Origin: Methylomonas koyamae
Lineage (GTDB): Bacteria; Pseudomonadota; Gammaproteobacteria; Methylococcales; Methylomonadaceae
DNA: 64,000 nt
Direction: 5' to 3'
NCBI RefSeq assembly: GCF_006483455.1
Contig: NZ_PPPU01000016.1
Span: forward strand, 124,001-188,000
A program made the translations under genes and the position numbers. The notes beneath the pieces were generated by a model. That model saw only the letters and a list, made by a program, of their open reading frames with translations. It had not been told where the DNA came from and searched no databases. This document shows positions 10,087 to 26,208 of the stretch, piece by piece. Every line of letters starts with the position of its first letter. Positions within the stretch are counted from its first letter, which is position 1.

Positions 10087-10455
10087 CTAATCGGCGGAAC
10101 AGACCCAGCCTTGAATGCAGGCTTCCATGCAGGCCGGGGTAGAGGTGAACAAACAGAATTTTTCGATCGGGTTCAGATCCGGCACCGCATTCAAATCGGC
10201 GACGATGGTGTTTAATGCATCCAGCCGCCCCAGGCTGCGGGTCCGTTCCCGGCTGTAATATTCGGTATTGGGCAGATTGTTGATACAAGCCTTTAATTCC
10301 GCAGGCGTCGACGCGCTAAGCACGCAACTGCGTTCGTACCGGGTGATCGTCGGCAGCCGGCCGAATAGTTTGGCGATGTCGGCCGGCGCCGAAACCGCTA
10401 AGGCACTGGCGCATACGCCGCATACAAGCAATAGATAAGTTATCCAAGTCTTCAT
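10087..10455 (-). CDS. Secreted cysteine-containing hypothetical protein
   Basis: 122 residues with a Sec-type signal peptide (MKTWITYLLLVCGVCASALAVSA) and six cysteines in the mature part (RSC, LKAC, KFC, PACMEAC, WVC), consistent with periplasmic disulfides. No family recognised. It is the last gene of the leftward peptide-export cluster, 100 bases after the ABC exporter, and may belong to the same transcript; its role is unknown. Confidence 0.65.
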   Translation of the reverse strand: MKTWITYLLLVCGVCASALAVSAPADIAKLFGRLPTITRYERSCVLSASTPAELKACINNLPNTEYYSRERTRSLGRLDALNTIVADLNAVPDLNPIEKFCLFTSTPACMEACIQGWVCSAD

Positions 10456-10555
10456 TTCGTGTGTCCTCGGTTGCGGTTCGGGGCGGAAGCGACACCCGGA
10501 CCGGTTCTGATCAGGAACGTGCCCCCTTCGGGCAAGGCTTCCGCTCCGGAACCTG

Positions 10556-12676
10556 CTAAGCTGCCTGCGATACCGCCTCGCAGCGGCCGCGCTGGGCCAG
10601 GGCCTGCAAATCGATCACCCGGTCCACCGAGGCGATGGTCTCCGGGCGGTGGGCGATGATGATGCGGGTCAGCTTCAATTGCTGAATCGCGCCGTTGACC
10701 AAGCGCTCCCGCGCCACGTCCAGATGGCTGGTGGCCTCGTCCAAAACCAGAATCTTCGGCCGTTTGTACAAGGCCCGCGCCAGCAGCACCCGTTGTTTCT
10801 GGCCGCCGGACAACACGGTGCCCATATCGCCGATCAGCGTGTTGTATGCCATCGGCATCGCCACGATGTCCTGGTGTACCGCCGCCAGTTGGGCGCAAGT
10901 TTCAATCCAGGCCTGGTCCGGTTCCGGATCGAAGAAACAGATGTTGTCGGCGATCGAACCGGCGAAGAGTTGATCTTCCTGCATCACCGCCGCGACCATG
11001 TCCCGGTAGTCACGGTTGTCGATTTGCGGCAAGCGCACGCCGCCGACCAATATTTCGCCGGAGCTCGGCTGCAACAGGCCGAGAATCAACTTGGCCAGCG
11101 TGGTCTTGCCGTATCCGGACGGACCGACGATGGCCACCGATTCGCCGGCCTGGATGTCCAGACTCAGATTGCTGATCACCGCCGGTTCCGACGGCGCATA
11201 GCTGAACTCCAGATCGCGGATTTGCAGCGAGGCCGGCAAGTCGCGCTGGCCGCAGCCCAAGCCGGCGCGCTCGGTGTCGGCCAGGGCGATATCGGCCACC
11301 CGCTCGGTGTGCAGGCCCAGCATTTTGAATTCGATACTTTTCTCGATGAAACTGCCGACCCGGTGGGTGAACTGGTCCTTGAACGACATGAAGGCAAACA
11401 GCATCCCCACCGAAAAACCACCGTCCAGAATGAACAGCGCGCCAAGCCAGACCACGGCGATGTTTTCCAGGCCGAACAACAGGCTGTTCAGCGCCTTGTA
11501 GACGATGCCCAGCTTTTGCACGCGAATGCCGGCGTTGAAATGGTCCACCATCAGATTCTGGTAACCGACCTTGCGTTGCAACTCGCGGTTGAACAACTTC
11601 ACGCTCTGCATGCCGCGCACGGTTTCCAGCAGATTGGTCTGCTGTTTGGCGCCGCGCAGGATTTGTTCCTCGGTCGCCAGCCGCAACGGCGTAAACAGGC
11701 TCAGCCTCAATAAGCCGTATAACGCGGCCGCCAGGCAGACGATGGCGGCCAGTTTCCAGCTATAGATCAGCATCATCGCCAGCGTGGCCAGCGCCATCGC
11801 GCCGTCGACGATGGCTTCCAGGAAGCTGGTGGTCAGCGTGCGTTGGATCACGTTCAACGATTCGAAGCGGGAGACGATGTCGCCGAGATGGCGCTTTTCG
11901 AAAAAACTCATCGGCAACTGCAATAAATGGCCGAACAGATTGCTCAGCAATTGCAGATTGGCCGAGGTGCTCAAGACCAGGACCACCCAGGAGCGCAATG
12001 CGGTAATCGCAGTCTGGATCAGAAACAGCAACAAAAAGCCCAAGCCCAGTACGGTCAGCAGGTTGTCGTCGCGGGCCACGACCGCGTTATCGACCACCAA
12101 TTGCATAAAAAAAGGCGCGACGATGGCAAACACTTCAATGGCCGCAGCCAATAAAACGATTTGCCAGATCGCGCCGGCGGCCCCATCCAACTGGCCAATC
12201 AGGCGGGAGAGCTTGATTTGTTGACGTTCGGTTTTCGGCGTAAAGCTTTGGGTCGGCATCAGTTCCAAAGCGATGCCGGTGAAATGTTTGGAGATTTCGC
12301 TAAACGGCAGATTCAGCACGCCTTTGGCCGGATCGTGTATTGTCGCCAGGCCGCGCTTGACCTGGGCCAGCACCACGAAGTGGTTGAAATCCCAATGCAG
12401 GATCGCCGGCAGGCTCAGCTTGCTCAGCTCCGGCAAATCGACTTTGACCGGGCGCGAGGCCAGATGCAACTGGTCGGCGATGCGGATCAAATGGTTCAAG
12501 GTCGAGCCTTTCAAGGACACCGAAAACTTGCGGCGTAAACTGGCGACGTCGAGCCGGTGGCCGTGGTAGGACGCCACCATCGCCAGACAGGCCAGCCCGC
12601 ATTCGGCGGCTTCGGTTTGCAGAATCGACGGCGTTTTCTTGCGGCCGGAAAAATCCAGCATGGCTTGTATGCTCAT
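10556..12676 (-). CDS. C39-peptidase-containing ABC transporter (double-glycine peptide processing and export)
   Basis: 706 residues with the full three-part layout of bacteriocin/colicin V-type exporters. An N-terminal C39 cysteine peptidase (1-135) has C26 in AECGLACLAM, H99 in LHWDFNHFVVL and D115 in HDP as the catalytic triad. A six-helix exporter domain spans about 165-440. The ATPase has Walker A GPSGYGKTT, signature LSGGQKQR and Walker B ILVLDEAT. It should cleave leaders after Gly-Gly and pump the cores across the inner membrane together with the HlyD adaptor encoded 3 bases upstream. The natural substrates are probably the two GG-leader peptides at 14414-14915. Confidence 0.95.
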   Translation of the reverse strand: MSIQAMLDFSGRKKTPSILQTEAAECGLACLAMVASYHGHRLDVASLRRKFSVSLKGSTLNHLIRIADQLHLASRPVKVDLPELSKLSLPAILHWDFNHFVVLAQVKRGLATIHDPAKGVLNLPFSEISKHFTGIALELMPTQSFTPKTERQQIKLSRLIGQLDGAAGAIWQIVLLAAAIEVFAIVAPFFMQLVVDNAVVARDDNLLTVLGLGFLLLFLIQTAITALRSWVVLVLSTSANLQLLSNLFGHLLQLPMSFFEKRHLGDIVSRFESLNVIQRTLTTSFLEAIVDGAMALATLAMMLIYSWKLAAIVCLAAALYGLLRLSLFTPLRLATEEQILRGAKQQTNLLETVRGMQSVKLFNRELQRKVGYQNLMVDHFNAGIRVQKLGIVYKALNSLLFGLENIAVVWLGALFILDGGFSVGMLFAFMSFKDQFTHRVGSFIEKSIEFKMLGLHTERVADIALADTERAGLGCGQRDLPASLQIRDLEFSYAPSEPAVISNLSLDIQAGESVAIVGPSGYGKTTLAKLILGLLQPSSGEILVGGVRLPQIDNRDYRDMVAAVMQEDQLFAGSIADNICFFDPEPDQAWIETCAQLAAVHQDIVAMPMAYNTLIGDMGTVLSGGQKQRVLLARALYKRPKILVLDEATSHLDVARERLVNGAIQQLKLTRIIIAHRPETIASVDRVIDLQALAQRGRCEAVSQAA

Positions 12677-12678
12677 GG

Positions 12679-13926
12679 TTACACCCTTCCGGCAATGCTA
12701 TAGAGCGGTTCGAAAATCCAGTCGATCAAGCGGCGGTGGTCCAGCCAGATGTCGGCATCCAGCAACATGCCGGACTGCAACGGGATCTCCTGGCGGTAGG
12801 CCTGCACCGACTGTTTGTCCAGCACGACCGTGACCCGGTAAACCGCTTCCTGCAAGGTCACCGGCAAATCGGCGTCCTTCGGCGTGATCAGCGTTTTGGC
12901 GATCTCGACGATGCGGCCGCGATGGCTGCCGAAACGCTGGTACGGAAAGGCCTGGTAACGGATCGCCACGGTTTGGCCGGTCTCGACGAAACCGACCGCG
13001 CTGGACGGCACTAGGAGTTGCGCCTGTAACTGAGCCCCAGCCGGCAAGATCGACAGCAACGGATTGGCGGTGCCGGCATTCTGGCCCTGTTCGGCCAGAA
13101 TCGCGGTCGCGGTGCCGTCGTGCGGCGCGGTGATGACGATGTTGCGCCGGGATTCTGATTCGGTGATGTTCTGGGTCAGGGTCGAGATGTTGCGTTCGAT
13201 TGCCGCCCGTTGGTTTCTGAACTTCATCTGGCTGCCGTCCACTTCCAACTGGGTGGCGCGGATGTCGCGCTGCAACGTCATTTGGATGCGTTGCAAGGCC
13301 TGCAATTTGGCTTGGTGATCCAGCCATTCGTCCTGTTTTTGCTGGGCCTGTACCGCCGAGACGAATTTGGTTTGGAGCAACTGCTGGTAGCGCTGCAACG
13401 TCGCTTCGGCGCCGGCCAGGCGTTGTTGTTGGGTAGCGATCTCGCTGTTGACTTGCTGCAGTTCGCGTTGCATGCCTTGCCAGCGGTCCAGCAAGGCGCG
13501 GTATTGAATTTGGTCGATTTGTTCCTGCTTGCTCAACTCGGTTTCCAGGCTTTCCCGCCGCTGTTTCAGTTGTTCGATTGCGGCGGCCTGGGCCTGTGGC
13601 GTGTCGCGGGAACTGCTGTCGGTGGACAATACGAACAAGGTATCGCCGGCTTTTACGGTTTGGCCTTCCTTGACGTGCTTCTCGATCAAGGTGCCGGCTT
13701 GCGGCGGGTAAACCTTGATCAAACCCATACTCGGCGCCAAATAACCGCTGACATGGGATTTGCGGGTGTATTCGCCCCAGAAGGCGAAGGCGATCAGCAG
13801 CACCGCGCTGCTAACCGCCAATGCGGTAAGTAAGGAAAACGGCAAAGCTTCCACCCGTATCACCTCGCCCAAAGGCTTGTCTCTTTTGTAATCCAAGGCT
13901 TGTTGTCGAAATAATGCCGGTTTCAT
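12679..13926 (-). CDS. HlyD-family periplasmic adaptor (membrane fusion protein)
   Basis: 415 residues. A cytoplasmic tail and one membrane helix (about 28-50) precede a lipoyl-like half (GTLIEKHVKEGQTVKAGDTLFVLS), a long glutamine-rich coiled coil at about 110-250, the second lipoyl half (ITAPHDGTATAILAEQGQNAG), and a beta-barrel region. This is the colicin V CvaA/HlyD type that links an inner-membrane exporter to an outer-membrane TolC-like channel. No TolC gene lies nearby, so a shared one elsewhere is expected. It directly precedes the C39 ABC gene. Confidence 0.93.
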   Translation of the reverse strand: MKPALFRQQALDYKRDKPLGEVIRVEALPFSLLTALAVSSAVLLIAFAFWGEYTRKSHVSGYLAPSMGLIKVYPPQAGTLIEKHVKEGQTVKAGDTLFVLSTDSSSRDTPQAQAAAIEQLKQRRESLETELSKQEQIDQIQYRALLDRWQGMQRELQQVNSEIATQQQRLAGAEATLQRYQQLLQTKFVSAVQAQQKQDEWLDHQAKLQALQRIQMTLQRDIRATQLEVDGSQMKFRNQRAAIERNISTLTQNITESESRRNIVITAPHDGTATAILAEQGQNAGTANPLLSILPAGAQLQAQLLVPSSAVGFVETGQTVAIRYQAFPYQRFGSHRGRIVEIAKTLITPKDADLPVTLQEAVYRVTVVLDKQSVQAYRQEIPLQSGMLLDADIWLDHRRLIDWIFEPLYSIAGRV

Positions 13927-13971
13927 GCTGCCGTTCTCCTCTCACCTGTGCTGTGTTAAAGACCAAAGCGC

Positions 13972-14406
13972 TCAGATAACGCCGTAATCGGCCGCCAGCC
14001 GCATCTCGTCGCTGGGTTTGAGGTTATTGGTCACCACTTGCGGACATCTGAAACAAGCCGCCTTCCCCTCCTGGTTCCACCAGCGGCAATCGGCGCGAAT
14101 CGCGCACACCGGCAATTGCTCGGTAACCGACGGCGTAAAGCGCACGACTTTTTCGGCCAAGCGACATTTCGATTCTTCGGCGGCAAAATGGCCGCATCCG
14201 CTGCAGGCGCAAGGCGCGGAGAACCGAAACACTTCGGCCGGCGTCAGCGGGCCGGCCATGGCCAGCACCTGCTCGGTGACCGGTTGCGGCGTATTCAGAT
14301 AGGCCATTTCCGGCTGTTCCGGGGTACCGGCCATAACGCCGATGACTTGGGCTCCGTCCCATTCCGGCTGCGCGCTGGGGCATAACACTGCGTTATCCGA
14401 GGCCAT
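13972..14406 (-). CDS. Eight-cysteine protein of the peptide-export cluster
   Basis: 144 residues. Apart from C9, the cysteines form two blocks of four: C66-x-C68-x2-C71-x9-C81 and C101-x5-C107-x10-C118-x2-C121. The pattern suggests two metal sites, zinc or iron-sulfur. No signal peptide or membrane helix. The gene begins 7 bases after the stop of the 92-aa precursor peptide, and the only good Shine-Dalgarno-like AAGGAG lies inside the end of that gene, so translation is probably coupled. I do not recognise a named family. Position suggests a role in regulating, folding or modifying the peptides; that is inference. Confidence 0.7.
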   Translation of the reverse strand: MASDNAVLCPSAQPEWDGAQVIGVMAGTPEQPEMAYLNTPQPVTEQVLAMAGPLTPAEVFRFSAPCACSGCGHFAAEESKCRLAEKVVRFTPSVTEQLPVCAIRADCRWWNQEGKAACFRCPQVVTNNLKPSDEMRLAADYGVI

Positions 14407-14413
14407 GGCGCGC

Positions 14414-14692
14414 TCAACCCAGCCGGGTTGCTCCTTGGATACCGGCCGCCAAGCCGCCGGCGGGGTTGGTGGCTAGGCCGTTGACGGCTTTGAATTGGTC
14501 GAACCTTGGGCCGCCGGCGATGATGCCTTTGCTCAGCACCAGGCTGACCGAGACGCCGCCGCTGACTTGCTCCAGCTCGGCGGCGCTCAATTCGGTGCCG
14601 GCCTCGGCGCGGGCCTGCAATGCGCGTTGCTTGCCTTGTTCGGCGAAAGCGGATAAGTCGTCGGCGGAAATCCGGGTAGTTTTATTTGACAT
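14414..14692 (-). CDS. Double-glycine leader precursor peptide (92 aa)
   Basis: 92 residues. The leader of 46 residues ends in ELSAAELEQVSGG, matching the class II bacteriocin leader pattern (hydrophobics spaced before GG). The predicted core is 46 residues, starting VSVSLVLSKG, rich in glycine and alanine (GGLAAGIQGA), with no cysteine. The leader is longer than typical bacteriocin leaders. It sits upstream of a C39 exporter in the same direction. The core could be a bacteriocin, a signalling peptide or a modified product; the sequence does not decide. Confidence 0.85.
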   Translation of the reverse strand: MSNKTTRISADDLSAFAEQGKQRALQARAEAGTELSAAELEQVSGGVSVSLVLSKGIIAGGPRFDQFKAVNGLATNPAGGLAAGIQGATRLG

Positions 14693-14723
14693 GATTGTTC
14701 TCCAGACTACGGTTGGAAAATCC

Positions 14724-14915
14724 CTAGCGCGCCAGAACGTTCTGGACCAAGGTTTTAACGTTGATCACGCTGGCGCCCGGATTGATCACCGGCCAGAATT
14801 TGCGCGGAAACTGGCTCAAGTCGCCTTCCGGGCCGATCAGGCCACCGGATACTTGGGCCTGCTCCTGTAGGGTCAAGACTTGCAAGTCTTGGGTAAACGC
14901 GGGTTGTTTTGACAT
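14724..14915 (-). CDS. Double-glycine leader precursor peptide (63 aa)
   Basis: 63 residues from the ATG at 14915, with AAGGAGC about 6 bases upstream. The 25-residue leader ends LTLQEQAQVSGG; the predicted 38-residue core begins LIGPEGDLSQ and includes FPRKFWPVINPG. No cysteine in the core. It is the first gene of the leftward cluster and its core shares no obvious sequence with the second peptide, so the exporter may handle a two-peptide set. Confidence 0.85.
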   Translation of the reverse strand: MSKQPAFTQDLQVLTLQEQAQVSGGLIGPEGDLSQFPRKFWPVINPGASVINVKTLVQNVLAR

Positions 14916-15480: not shown

Positions 15481-16146
15481 ATGCAATCCGAAGTTCTCGC
15501 TTGTCTCAACCAAATCCCGTTTTTGGCCGGCATGCCGGAAGAAGCGCTCAGCGCGCTGGCCTCGCGGGCCAAAGTCGTCAAATTTCCCAAGAAAGCCCTG
15601 ATCATCTCCGAAGGCGACGATACCTGCTCGATGTATATCGTGTTGTCCGGCAAAGTCCGGGTGTTCAGCAGTAACGAAAAGGACAAGGAAGTCACTTTGC
15701 TGATTCAGGAAGCCGGTTCCTACTTCGGCGAACTGGCCTTACTCAGCAACGAGCCGCGTTCGGCCGGCGTGGAAGCCATGGATAAGACGGTTTGCGGGGT
15801 CATTTGCAAGGCCGACTTCATCCACTGGCTGAAACAATACCCGGACGCCGCGATCGAGCTGCTTGGGGTGTTGGCGGAAAAAGTGCGGGCATTGACCGAG
15901 AAAGTCAAACAGATGGCGCTGTCCAACGTCTACGAACGCACCATCAAGATATTGCAGGACATGGCCGAAAAGGACGGAGACATTTACGTGATCCACAACC
16001 GGCCCACCCAGCAGGAACTGGCGACCATGGTCGGCTCGTCACGGGAAATGATCAATAAAGTAATGAAGGAATTGACCAAGGGCGGCTACGTCAGCGTAGA
16101 CGATAAAACGCTGCGCATCCTGCACACCCCGCCGGCATCCTGGTAG
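15481..16146 (+). CDS. Crp/Fnr-family transcriptional regulator
   Basis: About 221 residues from MQSEVLACL. The N-terminal cyclic-nucleotide-binding fold (about 10-125) contains GDDTCSMYIVLSGKVRVFS and GSYFGELALLS; a long dimerisation helix follows. A C-terminal winged helix has recognition segment TQQELATMVGSSREMINKVMKEL. No N-terminal Fnr-type cysteine cluster is present. The FGELALL segment resembles the cAMP-binding loop, so cAMP is a plausible ligand, which fits the nucleotide cyclase gene at 20.4 kb. No clear Shine-Dalgarno; the frame is open back to an ATG at 15403, whose extra residues look noncoding. The perfect CRP-type site upstream suggests autoregulation. Confidence 0.9.
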   Translation: MQSEVLACLNQIPFLAGMPEEALSALASRAKVVKFPKKALIISEGDDTCSMYIVLSGKVRVFSSNEKDKEVTLLIQEAGSYFGELALLSNEPRSAGVEAMDKTVCGVICKADFIHWLKQYPDAAIELLGVLAEKVRALTEKVKQMALSNVYERTIKILQDMAEKDGDIYVIHNRPTQQELATMVGSSREMINKVMKELTKGGYVSVDDKTLRILHTPPASW

Positions 16147-16303
16147 CCGGCAAACTCGCCGTTCAGTCCCCGTTAATCTGGCCGCAAGCCGGAACTTGAT
16201 CCGCTTCCAAACAGCGTAACCACACCGGCGGCGAGTTAATTATTACCTTGATAATGTGACCACTTCGACTATATTGCAAAGAAAACGCCACCTTGGAGAA
16301 ATA

Positions 16304-19300
16304 ATGCGTTGTCTTGTGATTTGGCTCATGTTTTTATTTTCGCAGTTATGTTCTGCGGAAACAGCCGCCTTCGCGGCGTGCAGCCAATCGGCATCGGCCA
16401 CGTTAGTCTCGCTGCAGGGCAGCCTTTATTTCGATCCCGATGGCCACGGCCGCTGGCAAGCGGCGCAATTGAACCAAGCGCTTTGCGAAGGCAGCCGGGT
16501 CCGGGTCGAAACCGATAGCCGCGCCAGCTTGCTATTGCCGAGCGGCATTACCTTACGTTTGAGCGGCGGCTCGGTCTTGACGCTAAATCGTATCGGTCAG
16601 CAAAGCCCGACGCTGTTGGACATGGCAAAAGGCTTCATCCATTTCATCAGCCGCACCCCAAAACAACTGCAAATCACCACGCCGGTGGCAAACGCCGGCC
16701 CGGAAGGTACCGAATTCGCATTACAAGCAGACTCGGCGACGGCTTCGCTGTGGGTCTACGAGGGCGGCGTACGCTTTTTCAACGGTCAAGGCGAAATTCG
16801 CCTGCACCCCGGCGAAGCGGGGCAAACCCAGCTCGGGCAAGCGCCGCGAGCGCAGCTGGACATCAAACCGCGCGACGCCGTGAATTGGGCGCTCTACTAT
16901 CCGCCGTTGCTGGATTATCCCAGTCACACTCAGCCGGTCGAGCCGGGTTTAAGCGCGGCAATTGCCGACTTTCGCCGCGGCCGAACCGACCTGGCATTAA
17001 CAGCCTTATCGGCGTTGACCCCGGCGCAGCAAACCCCGCAGTTATTGAAAGCTCGCGGTGCGATGCGTCTCAGCGTCGGCCAGACCGATGCCGCGCTACA
17101 GGACATCAACACCTTATTGGCAGCCAACCCGCGCGACGCCGACGCCCTGTCCTTGCAAGCCATTCTGGCGCTGAGCCAAAACCGCAAAGCCGAAGCCGAC
17201 CGTCTGGCCTCCCAGGCGGTGGCCGCCGATGGCGGTTCGGCCGCAGCGCATTCGGCCCTGTCTTACGTGCAACAAGGCCGCTTCGAGCTGGAACCGGCCC
17301 TGGCATCCGCCGCGCGCGCCGCGGAACTGGCGCCGCACGATGCCCTGGTCTGGGCCCGGCTGGCCGAATTGCAACTGGCGCTGGGCCGGCGCGGTGAGAG
17401 CCGAGACTCCGCCGCCAAGGCCTTCCAGCTCGATCCGAATCTGGAACGTACCCAGACGGTGGCCGGTTTCTCGCACCTGTTCGATACCGAAATCGATCAA
17501 GCCCGCCGCAGCTTCGAAACCGCAATCCGCTTGGATTCCAGCTCGCCACTGGCGCGGCTGGGTTTGGGACTGGCGAAAATCCGCGACGGCGACCTGGAAC
17601 AAGGCCGCCAGGAACTGGAAATCGCAGCGGTACTCGACCCGGAAAACGCACTGATCCGCAGCTACCTGGGCAAAGCCTATTACGAAGAACGCCGCGACAG
17701 CCTGGCCGCCGACCAGCTTGAACTGGCCAAGGAACGCGACCCAAACGATCCGACCCCCTATTTTTACGACGCCATCCGCAAACAAACCACGAATCGGCCG
17801 ATCGAGGCCTTGGCGGATATGCAGCAGGCCACACGACTGAACGATAACCGAGCTGTATACCGCTCTAAACTGTTACTGGACGAAGATCTAGCCGCTAAAA
17901 GCGCTAGCTTGGGCCGCATCTATAACGACCTGGGTTTTCAATGGATGGGCTTGGTGCAAGGATGGCGCTCCGTAACCGAAGACCCGAGCAACTTCTCGGC
18001 GCATCGGCTACTGGCAGATAACTACGCTTCAGTACCGCGCCACGAAATCACCCGCGTCAGCGAGTTACTGCAATCGCAATTATTGCAACCAGCCAACATG
18101 ACACCCATCCAGCCCGGCTTGCTAACCAGTAATCCGTTAGTACTCGAAGGCTTGGGACCAACGACACAATCGTTTAACGAATTTAACCCGCTATACACCC
18201 GTAACCGCTTGGCCTTGCAGTTATCGGCAATTGCAGGCGGAAACAATACCTGGGGCAACGAAGCGATACATTCCGGCATTTGGGACCGCTTTTCTTACAG
18301 CCTTGGTCAGTTTCACTATTCGACAGACGGATTCCGGGAAAACAACGATGTCGAAACCAACCTTTATACCGCGTTCGCTCAATTCGCTCTCACGCCCTCG
18401 ACCAACATTCAATTCGAATTCCGCGATAACAACACCGAATCGGGCGATATATCCTCTCAATTTTTTGCCGCCGATGTCGATGAGGCTTTGCGCCAAAACA
18501 ACCGCACAACCAGTGCAAGAACCGGATTGCATTACCAAATCGATGCAAACAGCGACTTCCTTGCATCGTTAAGTCATTTAAAAAGGGAAACCAATCAGAA
18601 TTCGCGTCACATTTTTACCGATGAATTCGGTTTTTTGCAGGATAAGAGCCGAACAAATCGAGTCACTGCAGAGGCTTTCCATATCGAATCGCAATATCTA
18701 AAACGTACAAAATATTCAAATTATGTTTTTGGACTGAGCTATCTTGGCCAAGATCAGAATATTTATATTGACGAAGCTAATAAGGCTTCGATTTTCGGTT
18801 TCGAATTGCCTTGTATCTGTAATACTTTAATCACAGACCGAGGTGGAAACTTTATCAACTCTTATGTTTATTCCAACGTCAATTGGTTGAACTATTTACC
18901 TATCACATTAGGCGTCAGCTTCGATTCAATGGATAGCCGTTCCTTCGGCACCGTCAACAAAGTAAATCCGAAAGTTGGCTTAAAATGGAATTATGCGGAG
19001 CAAAGTACATTACGCGCTGCCTACTTCACCAGTGTAAAACGGCCCCTAATATCCGATCAAACCATCGAGCCGACGCAGATAGCGGGCTTTAACCAATTTT
19101 TCGACGACATTACGGGTTCAATGTCTGAGAGATACGGAGTTGGCATTGACCATCAACTGACTAGAAACTTGTTTGTTGGCGCTGAGACATCATGGCGTAA
19201 CCTGCAAGTACCAATAGGAGAACCAACCAAAAAAAGGCAACGCGAACATCGCGATCACGGCTATATTTATTGGGCTATAAACGATCAGTTTTCTGTCAAT

Positions 19301-19720
19301 TTCGACATTAATTACGAAACAGTAAACCGCGAGCTCTTCGACAGCACAGATCTGACACCTGGATCGATCAAAACTCTAAGAATGCCATTGAGTGTTAATT
19401 ATTTTGCGCCAAACGGCATTTTCACGAAATTCACCGCGACCAACGTTCACCAAACCATCGATAAGCAAACCGGCTTAGCGATAAAGGGCTTACAACCTAC
19501 AATGCAAGAAGGTACTGACGATTTCTGGACGATTGATGCACAGTTCGGCTATCGTTTACCAAAACGTTTGGGCATCGTATCGATCGGGGTAAAAAACCTA
19601 TTCGACGAAAAATTTAATTACCAAGAATTTTACTTCCAAAACGGAGTTAATAACCCGATAATGCCGACTTTTCAACCGGGGAGATATTTGTATACTCAAA
19701 TTACAATCGCATTCAACTAA
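16304..19720 (+). CDS. FecR-domain / TPR / outer-membrane beta-barrel fusion protein
   Basis: 1138 residues from the ATG at 16304 (GGAG 7 bases upstream), with a signal peptide (CLVIWLMFLFSQLCSAETA). Residues ~25-200 are a FecR-type domain (VSLQGSLYF, GSRVRVETDSRASLLLPSG). Residues ~210-520 are TPR repeats (A.AL.DI..LLAANPRDADAL, LDPENALIRSYLGKAYYEE). Residues ~600-1138 alternate as in a beta-barrel and end in YLYTQITIAFN, the terminal aromatic typical of outer-membrane proteins, preceded by a TonB-receptor-like IGVKNLFDEKFNY. The barrel half is clearly AT-richer than the FecR/TPR half. It could be a secretion or assembly channel; transport substrate unknown. Confidence 0.8.
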   Translation: MRCLVIWLMFLFSQLCSAETAAFAACSQSASATLVSLQGSLYFDPDGHGRWQAAQLNQALCEGSRVRVETDSRASLLLPSGITLRLSGGSVLTLNRIGQQSPTLLDMAKGFIHFISRTPKQLQITTPVANAGPEGTEFALQADSATASLWVYEGGVRFFNGQGEIRLHPGEAGQTQLGQAPRAQLDIKPRDAVNWALYYPPLLDYPSHTQPVEPGLSAAIADFRRGRTDLALTALSALTPAQQTPQLLKARGAMRLSVGQTDAALQDINTLLAANPRDADALSLQAILALSQNRKAEADRLASQAVAADGGSAAAHSALSYVQQGRFELEPALASAARAAELAPHDALVWARLAELQLALGRRGESRDSAAKAFQLDPNLERTQTVAGFSHLFDTEIDQARRSFETAIRLDSSSPLARLGLGLAKIRDGDLEQGRQELEIAAVLDPENALIRSYLGKAYYEERRDSLAADQLELAKERDPNDPTPYFYDAIRKQTTNRPIEALADMQQATRLNDNRAVYRSKLLLDEDLAAKSASLGRIYNDLGFQWMGLVQGWRSVTEDPSNFSAHRLLADNYASVPRHEITRVSELLQSQLLQPANMTPIQPGLLTSNPLVLEGLGPTTQSFNEFNPLYTRNRLALQLSAIAGGNNTWGNEAIHSGIWDRFSYSLGQFHYSTDGFRENNDVETNLYTAFAQFALTPSTNIQFEFRDNNTESGDISSQFFAADVDEALRQNNRTTSARTGLHYQIDANSDFLASLSHLKRETNQNSRHIFTDEFGFLQDKSRTNRVTAEAFHIESQYLKRTKYSNYVFGLSYLGQDQNIYIDEANKASIFGFELPCICNTLITDRGGNFINSYVYSNVNWLNYLPITLGVSFDSMDSRSFGTVNKVNPKVGLKWNYAEQSTLRAAYFTSVKRPLISDQTIEPTQIAGFNQFFDDITGSMSERYGVGIDHQLTRNLFVGAETSWRNLQVPIGEPTKKRQREHRDHGYIYWAINDQFSVNFDINYETVNRELFDSTDLTPGSIKTLRMPLSVNYFAPNGIFTKFTATNVHQTIDKQTGLAIKGLQPTMQEGTDDFWTIDAQFGYRLPKRLGIVSIGVKNLFDEKFNYQEFYFQNGVNNPIMPTFQPGRYLYTQITIAFN

Positions 19721-19753
19721 AAATTAGTCAATAGAATAACAGGTGACATATTT

Positions 19754-20155
19754 ATGGAAATTTTAAGAAAGATTTGTGGTATTTGGGCTCGACAAAGTGA
19801 ATCATTCAAATTGCTCACTGTAGCTCTAGTTGTTGGTATAGCAACATTTACGTTTACACCTAAGACTTTAAACTTAGTCACGTTAAATGAATACAAAAAT
19901 CCAACCACCGGCGAATCGGCCGAACCAGTACCTTGCACAGTAGAACCGGGCGAAAAACAATGCCGAATTTTTAAAGACGAATTCGTAACCCAAGAAGTTT
20001 ATACTTCGACGCTCAGCCTAAAAGCGGGAAGCACCACTTGTTGCTTGACTACAACCTCCACTACTATCGGCGGTGAAGTCAAAGTTGGAACAGAGTCGTG
20101 TTGGACTATTCCGCAAACTCTACCGAATTGCCCTAGCGGTTATAAAAAAAAATAA
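19754..20155 (+). CDS. Hypothetical single-helix protein with cysteine-rich exterior
   Basis: 133 residues with AGGTGA upstream of the ATG. One N-terminal hydrophobic segment (FKLLTVALVVGIATFTF, about 18-34) may be a membrane anchor or uncleaved signal. The remainder holds seven cysteines (VPC, QC, TTCC, SC, NC) and many threonines (CCLTTTSTTIGG). No known family. It lies 33 bases after the FecR-TPR-barrel gene, shares its AT-rich composition and may be its partner or cargo. Confidence 0.65.
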   Translation: MEILRKICGIWARQSESFKLLTVALVVGIATFTFTPKTLNLVTLNEYKNPTTGESAEPVPCTVEPGEKQCRIFKDEFVTQEVYTSTLSLKAGSTTCCLTTTSTTIGGEVKVGTESCWTIPQTLPNCPSGYKKK

Positions 20156-20369: not shown

Positions 20370-22544
20370 ATGCCCCAGCGCCTACTCAGGCTGTTAATAG
20401 TCGCTGCAATCGCCGGTTTGATCGCAGGAGCCGTTTCTAGCGCGACCGATCTCGAACTCTCCAGCCAAGACACCCTCTTCCGCTGGCGGGGGCCGTTGCC
20501 GTCACCTGGGCAAGTCGTCGTCGTGGCGATGGACGAGGTTTCCGAAACGCAGTTGGGTGTCGGCCAGGATCTGACGCGTTGGCGGCCCTACCATGCCCGC
20601 TTGATTCGGCAATTGCAGCAGCAAGGCGCCAGACTGGTGATTTTCGATTTGCAGTTCATCACCGCCAACCCGGCGGTGGATCCGGACTTGGCAGCCGCAA
20701 TGCGCGAAGCCGGCAACGTGCTGATCGGGGAATGTATCCAGAAATTCCGCCACGGTACTGCCGACTTTTTCGGCCGCGAAGAATGCGCGGAGGCCAACCG
20801 GCAAACCGTCATTGCCCTGGAAGGCGAGGCGGCCGGGGAGTTGCCGGAACAATTGGTGGCAATGCGTAAAATCAGCGCGACGCCGGCGATCGGGCAAGCG
20901 GCGCTGGATAGCGCACCGTTTTTCCTGGTCAACGATGCCGAGGAGGCCAAAGTCCGGGAGGTGTGGACCTTTTTCGACGCCCTGGCCGATGCGCCGAGCC
21001 TGCCGGTACTGGCCTGGGCTTACACGTTACAACCTTTCGCCGACTGGACCGGAACCGGCCAAACCCTCTCCGCCTGGCTGACCGACCGCCGCCGGGATTG
21101 TCTGGCCGATGCCGGTCATGCCGCGCGTAGCGGCCTGGGGGCGAATTTCGATAAGGTGCTTTGCGACGGCGACAGCCGCTACCTGAACTATTACGGCCCG
21201 CCCAAGACGCTCCGGATGGAGTCTTACGTCGATGTCTATTCCGGCCAAGTCAACGACCTTCGCGACAAGGTGGTGTTCGTCGGCCGCGCCAACCGCCAAT
21301 TCTCGCCCGGCAAAACCGATTTTTTCCCGACACCGTTTTCCGATTCGCACACCGGCAAAATGGCCGGCGTCGAGATCATGGCGACCCAATTCGCCAACTT
21401 GAGCCAGGGTGCCTTCATCGAAATGCCGTTACCGTTTTGGTCGGTATCCGCCATCTTCGGCTTGGCTATCGCCGGCTTGCTGAACAGCCGCAGCAAACGC
21501 CGCGGCTTGTTTGCAAGCCTGCTGTTGGCCGCGGCTTATGCCGGCTTTGCCGTTTATGCCTTTGCCGCGCGGCATTGGTGGCTACCGCTGGCGGGACCGG
21601 TATTGGTGCAACTGCCGGTGTCGTGGTTGCTTGCCTTGGTCTGGTCCCGAATCGATTTGCTCTGCGAGCGCAAACGCCTGCTGGCATTCGTCCGCCAGGT
21701 GTTTCCGCAATGGGCCACCTTCGTCCCGGCTGCGCCCGGCGACTGGAACCCGGATCGGCATTTGCCGCCGACCCGCCCGGAACGGGATGTCAGCGGCTTG
21801 TGCCTGGCGACCGATATCGCCGGTTACACTGGCATTGCCGCCCAGCATTCGCCGCATGAAATGTGGCAATTGTTAAATGCCTACTATCAGGTACTCGGCC
21901 ACCCGGTCATTTCCCATGATGGCGCGATTGCCGACGTCACCGGCGATGCCATGATGGCGGTCTGGTTCGAATTGGCGCCGGCCAAACAGCGGCTGTTGGC
22001 CTGTCTGGCGGCGCTGGAAATGGCAGAGGCGGTCGCAGCCTTCAACAAAACCTCGCCACTGGCGGCATTGACCACCCGCATCGGTCTGCACGAAGGCCCG
22101 CTGACTCTGGGCCGGCTGGAAACCGGGCAGACCAGCCATTACCGAGCCATCGGCGACACGGTCAATACTGCGTCCCGGATCCAAGGCGTCAACACCCCGC
22201 TGGGTACGCGTATCCTGGCAACGTCGACCATCACCGCCGGGATCGACGGCGTTCTCAGCCGCCCGGTGGGCGCGTTTCGACTGGTCGGCCGCGCCGAACC
22301 GGTGGAATTGACCGAAATCGTCGGCCATGGCGAGTCGATTCCGAACATCGTGCACAGCATCTTCGCCGATGGCCTGGCCGCGTTTCGAGCCGGCCATTGG
22401 CCGGAAGCGGTGCGGGTGTTACAAGCCGTTTTGGAGCTCGACGCTAACGACGGCCCCAGCCGTTTTTATCTGAAAAAGGCATTGGCCTACCGGCAACACC
22501 CGCCCGAGGTTTGGGACGGGGTCATCGACTTGGACAGCAAATAA
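20370..22544 (+). CDS. CHASE2-domain class III adenylate/guanylate cyclase
   Basis: 724 residues. An N-terminal helix (LLRLLIVAAIAGLIAGAVSS) is followed by a periplasmic CHASE2 sensor domain (~30-345; DTLFRWRG, VVVAMDEVSETQLG, LVIFDLQF). Three membrane helices follow at about 350-430, then a cytoplasmic cyclase domain (~475-660) with LATDIAGYTGIA and DVTGDAMMAVW carrying the metal-binding aspartates, and GDTVNTASRI. A TPR-like tail ends the protein. It makes cAMP or cGMP in response to an envelope signal; the nucleotide cannot be told from the motifs alone. CHASE2 cyclases often neighbour FecR-type genes, as here. Confidence 0.9.
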   Translation: MPQRLLRLLIVAAIAGLIAGAVSSATDLELSSQDTLFRWRGPLPSPGQVVVVAMDEVSETQLGVGQDLTRWRPYHARLIRQLQQQGARLVIFDLQFITANPAVDPDLAAAMREAGNVLIGECIQKFRHGTADFFGREECAEANRQTVIALEGEAAGELPEQLVAMRKISATPAIGQAALDSAPFFLVNDAEEAKVREVWTFFDALADAPSLPVLAWAYTLQPFADWTGTGQTLSAWLTDRRRDCLADAGHAARSGLGANFDKVLCDGDSRYLNYYGPPKTLRMESYVDVYSGQVNDLRDKVVFVGRANRQFSPGKTDFFPTPFSDSHTGKMAGVEIMATQFANLSQGAFIEMPLPFWSVSAIFGLAIAGLLNSRSKRRGLFASLLLAAAYAGFAVYAFAARHWWLPLAGPVLVQLPVSWLLALVWSRIDLLCERKRLLAFVRQVFPQWATFVPAAPGDWNPDRHLPPTRPERDVSGLCLATDIAGYTGIAAQHSPHEMWQLLNAYYQVLGHPVISHDGAIADVTGDAMMAVWFELAPAKQRLLACLAALEMAEAVAAFNKTSPLAALTTRIGLHEGPLTLGRLETGQTSHYRAIGDTVNTASRIQGVNTPLGTRILATSTITAGIDGVLSRPVGAFRLVGRAEPVELTEIVGHGESIPNIVHSIFADGLAAFRAGHWPEAVRVLQAVLELDANDGPSRFYLKKALAYRQHPPEVWDGVIDLDSK

Positions 22545-22581
22545 ACCAGCCCGCCGCCGACACACCGGCCGGCCAAACAGT

Positions 22582-24312
22582 CTATTTCCCGCTCAGCAGC
22601 AGCAAAGCCAGCACAAAGCTACAGACAAAAAAGAACAACGCCGCACTCTTCCAGAACAATAACGGATTGCGCTCGACCAACGGGATTTTGTCTTCGGCCT
22701 TCAAGAATTGGGGATTCGGCGTCGCCAGATCGTGCAGAAACTCCGAAAGCTCGTCGTAACGCGATCGCGACTGGATGCTAGTGGCCTTACATAACGCACC
22801 GTCGATCCAGACCGGCACCAGCGGATTGCGCCGTATGCTCGGAACGTACTGCAAGCGCTCCAGATTGGTCCGGTTGGGTTTTTCCGGCAAGGTACCGTAC
22901 GGCAACTCGCCGTTCAGCATTTCGTAGCAAATCACGCCCAGCGAAAACAGATCGGACTTGACCGTGCCGCGCTGGCCGAGGTGGTATTCCGGCGCCGTGT
23001 AATTTAACGTGCCGAGGATATTTTCGTCGCCGGCATGATCCAGCGGCGTGATTTCGGCAATCCCGGCGATTTTAACCGAACCGAAATCGATGATTTTGAC
23101 GCTGCCGTCGGCGGCAATCATGATGTTTTCCGGCTTCAAATCCTGATGCAGCATTTCCATGCGGTGAAACGCGCGCAAGCCTTTGGCGATTTGCTCGACT
23201 AAAGCCCTGACCTGGCGCACCTCCGGTTTCGGATTGTCCGCCATCCAGTCGCGTAAGGTGCAGCCGTCGATATATTCGGTCACATAATACAGGCAGGATT
23301 TGCTGCGGTCGGTTTCCAGCACCTGCAGCACATTGGCGTGCTGAATCCGTTTTCCGGCCCATTCCTCGTGCAGAAAATGCTCGATGTAATGGGTATCGTC
23401 GTCGTACAGCACCGAAGGCGTTTTCAGAATCACCCGCCGGTTGTGCAAAGTGTCGTAAGCCCGGTAGATCTGGGTGCGCTTGCTGGCGTGCAATTCGGCT
23501 TCGATCCGGTAGCCGTCCAGCAGCATGCCCGGCTCCAGCGGCGGCGGGAACGGCAAATGGCCGTTATGGCGCAGCACTTCGTCCTCCCTCAGCAACGGCA
23601 GGCTGTCGACTTCGACGATCTGGCAGGTGACGTTATCGTCGCTGCCGTTCGCCAAAGCCGCAGCCACCAGATTGCGCGACATTTGTGCCAAATCGACCGC
23701 TTCCGCCAGTTGTGCGCGGATCGCCGCCTCGCCGACAAAATCGTGCAAGCCGTCGGTGCTGAGCAGGAAACGGTCGCCCTTCTCCAGCGTCAGCGATTTG
23801 TAATCGATCTCCAGATGCGGCTCGATGCCCATCGCCCGGTTCAGATAGCTCTTATCGTCGCTAACCCACAGCCGGTGGTCGCGAGTGAGTTGCTCAAGCT
23901 GGCCCTGGCGAAACAGATAGATGCGCGAATCGCCGACGTGGAAAAGATGCGCGGTATTGGATTTCAGCACCAATACGCTCAAGGTGCTGACCATGCCTTT
24001 GACCGAGGCATAACGCATCCGGCCCTGACTGTGCAGCCAGGAATTGGTGGCCGACAGGATTTTTTGGCCGGCCTTGGTCACCGACCAGGAATCCGGCGTG
24101 CTGTAATAATCCTCCAGAAACGCGGTGATGCAGCAATGGCTGGCTTCCTTGCCGGCCTCGCTACCGCTCATGCCGTCGGCAATCGCGACGGCAATGCCTT
24201 TTAAGGTCAACTGCGGTTCAGCCGGCACCAAGGCGCCCCAGAAATCCTCGTTGTCGGCTTTAACACCTTTGTCGCTGGCGGCACCGATGCGCACCGTTAA
24301 AGTTTTGACCAT
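22582..24312 (-). CDS. Bifunctional PP2C phosphatase / Ser-Thr protein kinase, membrane-anchored (copy 1)
   Basis: 576 residues. The N-terminal PP2C phosphatase (~1-245) has DNEDFWG, VAIADGMSG, HVGDSRIYLF, LLSTDGLHDF and GSDDNVT, the metal-binding set. A protein kinase (~265-540) has the lysine in VILKTPS, HQDLKPENIMI (catalytic loop), IDFGSVK (metal-binding DFG) and APEYHLG. The usual glycine-rich loop is replaced by AELHASKRTQIYRA. One C-terminal helix (FFFVCSFVLALLLLSG) anchors it to the membrane. Similar kinase-phosphatase genes adjoin nitrate transporter genes in other proteobacteria. It is the last gene of the leftward nitrogen operon and is convergent with the cyclase gene. Confidence 0.92.
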   Translation of the reverse strand: MVKTLTVRIGAASDKGVKADNEDFWGALVPAEPQLTLKGIAVAIADGMSGSEAGKEASHCCITAFLEDYYSTPDSWSVTKAGQKILSATNSWLHSQGRMRYASVKGMVSTLSVLVLKSNTAHLFHVGDSRIYLFRQGQLEQLTRDHRLWVSDDKSYLNRAMGIEPHLEIDYKSLTLEKGDRFLLSTDGLHDFVGEAAIRAQLAEAVDLAQMSRNLVAAALANGSDDNVTCQIVEVDSLPLLREDEVLRHNGHLPFPPPLEPGMLLDGYRIEAELHASKRTQIYRAYDTLHNRRVILKTPSVLYDDDTHYIEHFLHEEWAGKRIQHANVLQVLETDRSKSCLYYVTEYIDGCTLRDWMADNPKPEVRQVRALVEQIAKGLRAFHRMEMLHQDLKPENIMIAADGSVKIIDFGSVKIAGIAEITPLDHAGDENILGTLNYTAPEYHLGQRGTVKSDLFSLGVICYEMLNGELPYGTLPEKPNRTNLERLQYVPSIRRNPLVPVWIDGALCKATSIQSRSRYDELSEFLHDLATPNPQFLKAEDKIPLVERNPLLFWKSAALFFFVCSFVLALLLLSGK

Positions 24313-24346
24313 TCTGCGGGTTTAACCTGGTTCGGAGACAAGCCCG

Positions 24347-24652
24347 TCAGCAAGCCGGACTGCGGCCGAGTTCGGCCAGAGCCTGTTGCAGTTTGGCGCT
24401 GACCAGGGCTTGGTGGTGGCGGCGCAATACCGAATCGGACGGGCACGGCGCCAGGCCGGCCTGGATTTCGCTATTGATTTGCGCCAGAAAGTGGCGCCTC
24501 AACACGGCATCTTCCGGCAGACTGCGGCTGCGCGCCGCACAAACCGCTGCCCGCTCCGGCCCCGCTTCCAGCATTGCGGCCGACTGGCGGCAAGCGGTGC
24601 GCCAACAAAATACCATCCCCAATGTCACGGTCGCCAATACAGTTTCAATCAC
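24347..24652 (-). CDS. Small membrane-anchored hypothetical protein
   Basis: About 101 residues. I prefer the GTG at 24652 because a strong TAGGAG lies 8 bases upstream; an ATG at 24679 would place that site inside the gene. A short N-terminal hydrophobic segment (ETVLATVTLGMVFCW) is followed by a soluble, arginine-rich helical part containing two similar stretches (SLPEDAVLRRHFLAQINSEIQ and CPSDSVLRRHHQALVSAKLQ), a degenerate internal duplication. No known family. It sits between narK and kinase copy 1, 34 bases ahead of the latter. Confidence 0.6.
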   Translation of the reverse strand: MIETVLATVTLGMVFCWRTACRQSAAMLEAGPERAAVCAARSRSLPEDAVLRRHFLAQINSEIQAGLAPCPSDSVLRRHHQALVSAKLQQALAELGRSPAC

Positions 24653-24704
24653 GTCGAATACTCCTAAATCACAAGTCACAAAATGGCCGGGAGCCTCCGG
24701 CCGC

Positions 24705-26180
24705 TCAGTTCAGTTCGATCATCGCCACGCTACCGTCTTCCATGACTTCCGCCATATGCCCGGCCGGCTCCTCGATGAATTGAACGCTTACCGCCACCAA
24801 TACCGCCGTGGCGGCGATGGTCAGGAAGAAGATTTCCGGCGTCACGAATGACAGCACGGTCAAAAAAGTCACGCCGCCAACGTTGCCGTAAGCACCGACC
24901 ATGCCGGCGATCTGGCCGGTCATACGCCGTTTGATCAGCGGCACCATCGCGTAAACCGCGCCGCAACCGGCCTGAACGAAAAACGAGCATAAAAAAGTGG
25001 CGGCAAAAGCCAATACGATCGGCCAATTCGAGTCGATTTGCGACATTGCGGCGTAGCCGACCGCACAGCCGATCACGCAGATACTCAAGGACAATTTGCG
25101 GCCGTATTTATCGCTGAGCCAACCGCCGCCGGGCCGCGCCACCAGATTCATGAAGGCGAAGCTGGAGGCCAGCAGGCCGGCCTGCACCGTGGTAATCCCG
25201 GTATGTTTAAAGGTGTCGTGGAAGAACATCGGCAGCATCGAGACCACCGCCAATTCGGAGCCGAAGGTTACCAGGTAGGCTAAATCCAAAATCGCGACCT
25301 GCTTGAATTTATAGTGGTGTATCGGTTCTATAGGCTGCGCCAAGTGCTCGGCGTTGATATGCACGATTTTGTAGACGTTGAAGGCAAACAGCGTCCAAAT
25401 CACGACGTAGGCGGCGATGGTTGCCGGCTCCGACAGCAACTTCATGCCGGTCGGCGACAGCTTCCAGGCCAGCAGGGTCAGAGCCGCATACAGCGGTACG
25501 CTCATTAGGATGTACAGTGCCAAGTCGGCGTAGCTGGTGACTTCCATCGCCCCGGCCTTCTTCGGTTTGAAATAGGTCGAGCCTTTGGGCGTATCGCTGA
25601 CGCTGAAAAAATACACGACCGAATACAACAAGGCCAGCACGCCGGTCGCCGCAATCGCGTAACGCCAGCCGTCATCGCCGCCGAAGGCCAGCGCCAGGGA
25701 CGGCAATACGATCGCCGCCGCCGCCGAACCGAAATTGCCCCAGCCGCCGTAGATGCCTTCGGCGATGCCGAGCTGCTTGGCCGGGAACCATTCCCCCACC
25801 ATCCTGATGCCGATCACAAAACCGGCGCCGACGAAGCCCATCAGAAACCGGGCCAGCGCCAATTGCTCGAAATTGTCGGCGGCGGCGAACATGAAACAGG
25901 GCACGCTGCCGACGGCAAGCAAGGTCGAATAAGTCCGCTTCGGCCCGAATTTGTCCACCAAAATGCCGATCGCAATCCGCGCCGGGATCGTCAGCGCCAC
26001 GTTCAGTATCAAAATGGTTTTAGCCTCGGCCGGGCTGAGCTGCAAAGTTTCGGAAATCGCCAGCATCAGCGGCGCGTGGTTGAACCAGACCACGAAGCTG
26101 ATAAAAAACGCCAGCCAGCTCATGTGCAAAATTTTCATTTTGCCGGCAAAACTGAACAAATCGAGGTTGCTTGATGACAT
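24705..26180 (-). CDS. narK: NarK-type nitrate/nitrite MFS transporter
   Basis: 491 residues and twelve predicted helices. The nitrate-porter features are visible: NHAPLMLAISETL in the first helices, the MFS loop GILVDKFGPKRTY, GIRMVGEWFPAKQLGIAEGIYGGWGNFGSA (nitrate signature near 130-155), a second MFS loop GGWLSDKYGRK, and GMVGAYGNVGGVTFLTV (second nitrate signature). It moves nitrate inward or exchanges nitrate and nitrite across the inner membrane. It lies 28 bases after kinase copy 2. No nitrate or nitrite reductase genes are in the window. Confidence 0.93.
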   Translation of the reverse strand: MSSSNLDLFSFAGKMKILHMSWLAFFISFVVWFNHAPLMLAISETLQLSPAEAKTILILNVALTIPARIAIGILVDKFGPKRTYSTLLAVGSVPCFMFAAADNFEQLALARFLMGFVGAGFVIGIRMVGEWFPAKQLGIAEGIYGGWGNFGSAAAAIVLPSLALAFGGDDGWRYAIAATGVLALLYSVVYFFSVSDTPKGSTYFKPKKAGAMEVTSYADLALYILMSVPLYAALTLLAWKLSPTGMKLLSEPATIAAYVVIWTLFAFNVYKIVHINAEHLAQPIEPIHHYKFKQVAILDLAYLVTFGSELAVVSMLPMFFHDTFKHTGITTVQAGLLASSFAFMNLVARPGGGWLSDKYGRKLSLSICVIGCAVGYAAMSQIDSNWPIVLAFAATFLCSFFVQAGCGAVYAMVPLIKRRMTGQIAGMVGAYGNVGGVTFLTVLSFVTPEIFFLTIAATAVLVAVSVQFIEEPAGHMAEVMEDGSVAMIELN

Positions 26181-26208
26181 ATAAAACCAAAGAACAGAGT
26201 GAATGAAA

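Follow-up and report, generated by a model that had tools for sequence, protein, structure and literature searches.

The closest described counterparts of the locus analysed here are the colicin V/class II microcin export loci, the nap island, the NHLP/Nif11 systems and the class IIb two-peptide bacteriocins. In the portion of the source available, the mcbABCI locus of Moraxella catarrhalis contains one double-glycine (GG) peptide and a 74-aa immunity factor, McbI (PMC2761928). The Methylomonas locus shares with it the HlyD-type and CvaB-type (C39-ABC) genes and the small GG peptide within one operon, but differs in having two or more peptides, one of them with what seems to be a two-part leader, and a protein with eight conserved cysteines, referred to as C8. 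The nap island of Neisseria gonorrhoeae, likewise a Gram-negative locus, encodes in the available part of its description a C39 peptidase together with several small GG peptides, which cause autolysis; however, it also contains the FapF-like channel NapF and the LagC-like NapI, and that part describes no C8-like protein and never uses the word cysteine (PMC11798529). In the NHLP/Nif11 systems, according to the excerpted text of PMC2887384, a long leader ending in GG is found with C39-ABC and HlyD proteins (TIGR03794/03796/03797 exporters), as is the case here. Unlike in those systems, neither pepA nor pepB matches TIGR03793 (NHLP) or TIGR03798 (Nif11) at E values up to 1, and the exporter stays under the cut-off of TIGR03796, its best NCBIfam model (483.8 vs 853.3 bits). 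The scan of the operon and its flanking genes found no known RiPP modifying enzyme, and inspection by eye of the ORF lists from five loci outside Methylomonas revealed none either. RiPP-like (bacteriocin) clusters are reported in bulk across methanotrophs in the accessible part of PMC11964084. Within the available parts of the literature on methanotroph and Methylomonas bacteriocins and RiPPs, double-glycine peptides, C39/HlyD export and NHLP/Nif11 (including PMC10994174), no description of the locus or of C8 was found.

The window, i.e. the whole 64-kb stretch of Methylomonas koyamae DNA that was analysed, carries all genes of the locus on the minus strand. The first is pepA (14915–14724), preceded by an SD-like GGAG and encoding 63 aa: a 25-aa double-glycine leader and a 38-aa core LIGPEGDLSQFPRKFWPVINPGASVINVKTLVQNVLAR. 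The second, pepB (14692–14414), encodes 92 aa, with a 46-aa leader and a 46-aa Gly-rich core. C8 (14406–13972; 144 aa), which starts 7 bases past the end of pepB, has no membrane segment. It is followed by an HlyD-type periplasmic adaptor (13926–12679; 415 aa), a C39 peptidase-ABC exporter (12676–10556; 706 aa) and a secreted Cys protein (sec122; 10455–10087; 122 aa) with a signal-like N-terminus. The intergenic gaps are, in order, 31, 7, 45, 2 and 100 bases. The GC content of the operon (0.58–0.61) is similar to that of the flanks (down to 8000), and there is no sign in base composition of a mobile island. A promoter and terminator scan gave counts lower than the shuffled means. The window also contains a FecR/TPR gene with a CHASE2 cyclase gene after it.

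The exporter is of a known kind. As the earlier note had read it, the peptidase is intact (C26, H99 and D115); Q20 and the ATPase motifs GPSGYGKTT, LSGGQ, ILVLDEA and IIAHR are present as well, and no second C39 domain was found in the source genome. The adaptor matches PF13437 above the cut-off (E 3e-14) and TIGR01843 under it (152.7 vs 208.65 bits). The operon encodes no outer-membrane channel; the rest of the genome contains 36 matches to the OEP domain. Concerning the secreted Cys protein, it has no family match in the libraries searched and lies near only 5 of the 16 Methylomonas cassettes, within the stretches examined; it was rejected as a member of the system and is probably a neighbour outside it. 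The gene list of the earlier note holds for the peptides, the exporter and the adaptor, while it had overlooked C8 and counted the secreted Cys protein in.

The gene pepA is found in 16 of the 37 Methylomonas genomes searched, and in all 16 the five genes pepA-pepB-C8-HlyD-C39 occur together. Both peptides are retained in every Methylomonas genome with an orthologous exporter cassette (16/16), and the finding that by the earlier note would have spoken against the system, an exporter kept after loss of the peptides, was not made there. The proposal of dedicated peptide secretion with its own exporter is well supported. Outside the genus, pepB-C8-HlyD-C39 recurs at six of ten loci, two more being truncated where the available sequence stops; a short-leader peptide is present at these six loci and differs by lineage.

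Looking at the peptides separately, the leaders end in EQAQVSGG (pepA) and AELEQVSGG (pepB), and the cores of 38 and 46 residues, respectively, are both free of cysteine, in agreement with the earlier reading of two small double-glycine peptide genes. The two cores are also mutually unlike, as had been claimed: in hhalign their likeness is not significant (E 0.14 over 5 columns). The residues DL.QFP...WP.INPG of the pepA core are invariant in all 16 sequences. In the pepB cores, [IVL]-I-x-G-G is found by eye in 23 of 27, and the core varies more than the leader. The presence of GxxxG in both cores is defining for class IIb bacteriocins, and their immunity gene is usually a membrane protein. 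The Methylomonas peptides resemble this class in being two unlike, adjacent, cysteine-free GG peptides, with the GxxxG motif GIIAG in the pepB core; however, the pepA core lacks GxxxG, the model scores lie under the cut-offs and no membrane immunity gene was seen. Among the curated families, pepA matches no class II or IIb bacteriocin model, and pepB reaches 14.9 bits against both PF10439 (cut-off 27.1) and TIGR03949 (cut-off 21.5).

C8 is not named by any of the libraries searched. The matches of the window protein to PF25339 (E 0.15), of one of 19 members to DUF6083 (E 0.005) and of one of 13 members to its best NCBIfam model (E 0.11) were treated as chance. An AlphaFold2 model built on an 18-sequence alignment has a mean pLDDT of 47.6, too low to give a structure or to make fold matches meaningful. 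Homologues are distributed across five phyla (Pseudomonadota, Acidobacteriota, Cyanobacteriota, Bacteroidota and Actinomycetota), where they adjoin small peptide genes, a few of them inside RiPP clusters. In Nostoc one C8 gene neighbours an NHLP precursor, and in Spirosoma a C8 gene comes after NHLP-type exporters. Relatives were absent from the viral contigs scanned; one of 50,697 records, unverified, unannotated and labelled Bacteriophage sp., has C8, which is too little to regard it as a viral gene.

The pepB leader seems, from its sequence, to be made of two parts: a C8-linked segment, roughly residues 1–30, which resembles the start of small proteins encoded beside C8, and then a double-glycine export signal ending in VSGG. 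A profile comparison of six such partner proteins (T2), a set grouped by eye after the likeness had already been noticed, with the 27 pepB sequences gave an alignment of 30 columns with E 5.7e-5 and a probability of 66%; its score of 30.6 was reached by none of 100 composition-preserving column shuffles (at most 17.3). In single-sequence searches with the T2 model, only 9 of the 27 pepB score above the top one of 2000 shuffles and 20 above the second best; in the reverse search two of the six T2 partners outrank the shuffles. With a pepB-leader model, the N-terminal extension of a C8 protein on a Nostoc plasmid ranks first, above 10,000 shuffles (E 0.0019), and with a leader-only pepB model all partner proteins fall within the shuffle range. 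A pepB-model match is missing in 8 of the 18 C8 genomes searched. Strong matches in a draw of 398 genomes come from two genomes only, both with C8, and are not independent, as both contributed sequences to the model. For a further group of partners (T3), neither pepB nor pepA gives a significant match: whole pepA is equalled by 11 of 100 shuffles, and the eye-catching resemblance of the pepA core to the T3 motif FPREW.GII by 12 of 100.

Could the likeness be a convergence of short amphipathic helices, with C8 a metal or redox protein linked to the peptides by nothing more than the shared operon? The segment is short and of common composition, the single-sequence scores are weak, the T3 partners are unmatched and a clear small neighbour is missing from 3 of the 29 non-cassette C8 genes, all of which would suit such a reading. 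It is nevertheless quite improbable in our judgement: the column shuffles, which keep composition, never reach the observed score, a small gene lies directly upstream of C8 in 24 of the 29 loci (by eye), and in Nostoc C8 itself carries a fused leader-like segment. The pairing of C8 with this leader appears to be new.

In another reading, the locus would be a two-peptide bacteriocin or class II microcin locus of the usual type, with C8 as the immunity protein against pepB. In its favour are the two unlike adjacent GG peptides with an exporter, the patchy distribution (16/37 genomes of the genus) and the joint duplication of pepB and C8 in a Zoogloeaceae contig; Gram-negative loci of the mcbABCI type, as far as the available text goes, also combine one GG peptide and a small immunity gene that lacks homologues (PMC2761928). 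We consider this unlikely. C8 lacks a membrane segment, some C8 genes adjoin small proteins without any GG exporter, and the C8-linked segment sits in the leader of pepB, not in its core. A toxin-tracking immunity protein should also co-vary with its toxin, whereas C8 shows stronger conservation (dN/dS 0.04–0.22) than the pepB core (0.18–0.72). In these comparisons, made between the window and 9 of the other 15 Methylomonas, all computable peptide dN/dS values are below 1, several being not computable since the genes are too short; together with the 16/16 co-occurrence of the peptides and the exporter, this indicates that the peptide genes are no chance ORFs.

What was computed here comprises genes, motifs, conservation, co-linearity and the similarity of the leader to C8-linked proteins and one C8 extension; from these we infer what follows on binding, metal, maturation, secretion and a role outside the cell. 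We give about an even chance to a system for the secretion of two peptides, with C8 binding pepB and either holding or maturing it ahead of cleavage by C39. The five genes would form a type I secretion operon handling both peptides. PepA, with its plain short double-glycine leader, would be cleaved and carried out of the cell by the C39-ABC/HlyD pair, with the outer-membrane channel presumably encoded outside the operon. The first ~30 residues of pepB, centred on R-I-S-x-x-E-L-x-x-x-A-x-x-G-x-x-R-A-L-x-A-R, may be a docking segment for the adjacent cytoplasmic C8, and the last ~15 residues of the leader the double-glycine signal for C39. The eight cysteines of C8 probably hold a metal or Fe-S centre around which the protein folds; C8 would bind the pepB precursor and either keep it export-ready or help to mature the core; C39 would then take off the whole leader.

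Concerning the role outside the cell, the peptides could be pheromone-like signals rather than killers, which is compatible with C8-assisted secretion and which we hold as a tentative reading. In pepA the core is better conserved than the leader (mean pairwise identity 66.8% vs 58.2%), a CRP-like regulator is found near 14 of the 16 Methylomonas cassettes, and the FecR/TPR gene, followed in the window by the CHASE2 cyclase, is present in all 16 cassette-bearing genomes and in 3 of the 21 that lack the cassette. However, the FecR/TPR gene is distant from the cassette in 4 of the 16 genomes, its co-occurrence, counted within the genus only, may merely follow ancestry, no receptor was identified, and in pepB it is the core that is more variable than the leader. 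We lean slightly towards antagonism over signalling.

A broader proposal, possible although we would not favour it, is that C8 founds a family of maturation proteins, so far undescribed, which bind precursors, possibly contain Fe-S and have their own docking leader, R-I-[ST]-x-x-[EQ]-L plus a short helix, serving small peptides in five phyla; the Methylomonas locus would then be the secreted double-glycine branch of a new RiPP-like class. With this finding, an otherwise generic double-glycine locus gives access to a protein family without a name, and C8 could serve as bait for small secreted or modified peptides which current models miss. The two-part leader makes it possible to test, clearly and cheaply, how a C39 exporter receives its precursor, and the locus is a concrete candidate for a peptide-mediated interaction among methane and ammonia oxidisers.

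The five genes of the cassette lie on the minus strand of the window from 14915 to 10556, in the order pepA, pepB, C8, HlyD adaptor and C39 peptidase-ABC exporter, with intergenic gaps of 31, 7, 45 and 2 bases; pepA and pepB encode double-glycine (GG) precursor peptides. The exporter retains Q20, C26, H99, D115 and the ATPase motifs, and its C39 domain is the sole one found in the window's genome. By sequence, its closest solved structures are 4ry2 and 8vp3, entries titled ABC-type bacteriocin transporter; the layout and the exporter are of a known kind. A secreted 122-aa protein with six cysteines past a signal-like stretch is encoded 100 bases after the exporter (10087-10455, minus strand); it has no family match in the libraries scanned and was observed close to 5 of the 16 Methylomonas cassettes, adjoining the exporter.

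Of 37 genomes of the genus, 16 have a pepA match with E no higher than 2e-13; three more contain weak matches only (E 0.02-0.06) and 18 none. In each of the 16 pepA genomes (the window, L043-L051 and L099-L104), pepA, pepB, C8, HlyD and C39 are grouped at one locus. Across the family sample, C8 is present in 11 of 151 genomes: ten whose exporter has 77% identity or more, plus G150, where C8 occurs but the cassette does not. No C8 was found in the stretches covered around ten further exporters whose identity does not exceed 58% (L052-L059, L061 and L062); two of these loci are contigs under 8 kb. Against nine relatives, dN/dS where computable is 0.09-0.44 for the pepA core, 0.18-0.72 for the pepB core and 0.04-0.22 for C8 (Nei-Gojobori; rough for genes so short). 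Mean pairwise identity over the 16 cassettes is higher in the core than in the leader of pepA (66.8% and 58.2%), and higher in the leader than in the core of pepB (76.3% and 58.6%). Two Methylomonas genomes also have an unrelated second exporter locus (L057 3887-4841, L058 2860-3680), which encodes Gly-rich GG peptides of 81-97 aa with the look of microcins.

Divergently upstream of the cassette are a CRP-like regulator (15481-16146), a FecR/TPR protein of 1154 aa (16256-19720, plus strand), which judged by eye has a barrel-like C-terminal half, and a CHASE2 cyclase (20370-22544). The FecR/TPR gene is found in 16/16 cassette-bearing vs 3/21 cassette-lacking Methylomonas genomes (Fisher p 9e-8), a co-occurrence that shared ancestry could explain, and it is near the cassette in 12 of those 16. 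Homologues are present in 8 of 9 other genomes with pepB and C8 (the miss is G262), and no inference is drawn from either count. GC is 0.41-0.45 at 18000-20000, vs 0.55-0.62 around. Two long minus-strand ORFs (22582-24312 and 26209-27996), which by eye look like PP2C-kinase fusions, flank a transporter-like ORF; the group, 20370-27996, begins with the CHASE2 cyclase gene.

Outside Methylomonas, the distribution is based on a C8-alignment scan of genome_contigs (84,980 species), which gave 17 loci, seven of them Methylomonas; the scan was seeded on two short peptide patterns and is incomplete. Six of the ten other loci contain pepB-C8-HlyD-C39 (UBA7310, a Pseudomonadales MAG, Ch67 and three Nitrosomonas MAGs), two Zoogloeaceae loci contain pepB and C8 before the contig ends, and an Acidobacteriaceae MAG and a Sphingomonadaceae MAG contain C8 without the exporter. 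A pepA-like peptide precedes pepB in UBA7310 (tblastn), and in the Pseudomonadales MAG and Ch67 (by eye). The Nitrosomonas loci and one Zoogloeaceae locus contain a different, shorter GG peptide between C8 and HlyD: 39 aa in L091 (8641-8760) and L092 (8613-8732), 47 aa in L093 (8668-8811) and 34 aa in L095 (from 9507), the Zoogloeaceae locus in which pepB and C8 are also duplicated as a pair. Based on this survey, pepB, C8 and the exporter are constant, while the short-leader peptide varies by lineage. The peptides of the C8-HlyD interval are tiny and hydrophobic, the smallest core being 13 aa. Upstream of the UBA7310 cassette (L088 62-4210), two ORFs resemble type VI secretion genes by eye, one of them ClpV-like.

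Concerning C8 itself (144 aa), an alignment of 19 sequences shows eight invariant cysteines: C9, C66, C71, C81, C101, C107, C118 and C121. In a broader alignment of 13 sequences, seven of them show no variation and C9 almost none, the exception being one sequence that was started too late; of 19 sequences tried, 18 fit the spacing pattern of these cysteines, and the one that does not is that same sequence. We found no match of weight for C8 in Pfam, NCBIfam, PHROGs or PDB sequences, and no hydrophobic segment. C8 is present in 7 of 398 genomes drawn evenly across the phylum, in 5/199 and 11/148 genomes drawn from two further orders within it (those of G372 and G514, probably Alphaproteobacteria), and in 8 of 72,556 plasmid records (Agrobacterium vitis 3, Streptomyces 2, Nostoc 1, Spirosoma 1, Polymorphobacter 1).

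Neighbours of C8 were identified by visual inspection of ORF lists and of the annotation as deposited, with no gene caller. Among 29 C8 genes outside pepB-HlyD-C39 cassettes, 24 have a small same-strand gene directly upstream, two have one directly downstream (L114, L170) and three have no clear small neighbour (L117, L148, L156). Partners of type T2 are about 105 aa long and start like RAKSISVEEL...A..AV..AL; those of type T3 are about 77 aa and carry FPREWYGIILHP. The Spirosoma partner, located after an annotated NHLP-type exporter pair, is a double-glycine peptide whose core contains SPIITGP. The Nostoc C8 is preceded by an annotated NHLP RiPP precursor, in a cluster that also has TOMM, SagB and nif11 radical-SAM genes. 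On the Polymorphobacter plasmid (L170 3001-4794), C8 and a small downstream ORF face a convergent radical-SAM/SPASM gene, the best models for which are the cyclophane maturases YhhB and FxsB at scores below their cut-offs. One partner contains a DUF1843 region above the Pfam cut-off; the remaining partners scanned for domains gave no match of weight. At L145 (1008-2819), a C8 homologue has two small genes upstream, one with a DUF1843 region, and the protein encoded downstream resembles a caspase-family peptidase by eye. Streptomyces plasmid C8 genes each follow a small ORF (L165 5706-6435, L166 5690-6435, L169 5877-6382); two of the encoded proteins begin with a signal-like stretch, contain a segment resembling R-I-T-x-x-x-Q-L and carry a C-terminal Cys.

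When the profiles of six T2 partners and of 27 pepB precursors were compared, 30 columns aligned at the start of the pepB leader. The alignment has E 5.7e-5, probability 66% and score 30.6, the top of 100 column shuffles being 17.3, and is favoured by the T2 set having been grouped by eye after the likeness to pepB was noticed. The same comparison gave nothing for T3 vs pepB, T3 vs pepA, T2 vs pepA or T2 vs T3, with 8, 11, 12 and 7 of 100 shuffles, respectively, equally good. Single-sequence searches gave weak signals: the T2 model ranked 9 of 27 pepB sequences above all 2000 shuffles and 20 above all but one, with none of 18 pepA and none of 8 other GG peptides listed; in reverse, 2 of 6 T2 partners exceeded the best shuffle. 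With a model of the pepB leader only, the Nostoc C8 took the top rank through its N-terminal extension, above 10,000 shuffles (E 0.0019; aligned stretch KPQSIESEELENATFHAKQRAIEARQT), and every partner protein fell within the shuffle range. Our reading is that a leader-like segment is fused to C8 in one organism, Nostoc, and belongs to the peptide elsewhere, an argument for contact between C8 and the peptide. The pepB model matched 13 of the 398 genomes at E 0.01. Strong matches occur in two of them, both with C8: 4e-34 in the window's genome and 2e-16 in G262. The remaining 11 genomes have no C8, and none of their matches is better than 2e-5. As both strong genomes contributed sequences to the model, this is a consistency check only. 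A search for pepB in 18 genomes with C8 found it in 10, namely those of the window and G262 and the eight of exporter type that the C8 scan gave.

The leader of pepA is plain (25 aa) and would be handled by C39 alone. That of pepB has the same C39 signal at its end and the C8-linked segment at its start. In the simplest account, C8 would bind this segment in the cytoplasm and hold or mature pepB until its uptake and cleavage by the exporter; both peptides would then exit through HlyD and one OEP-type channel of the genome, which has 36 OEP domain matches. We also infer a metal content for C8. C8 and the two-part leader of pepB are undescribed within the libraries and literature searched; that C8 is a new family of RiPP-like partner proteins is a tentative proposal, and a rather doubtful one. 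As to the role outside the cell, the Gly-rich pepB core with its conserved I-x-G-G stretch and the patchy distribution fit antagonism, and signalling could match the steady pepA core and the regulator close by.
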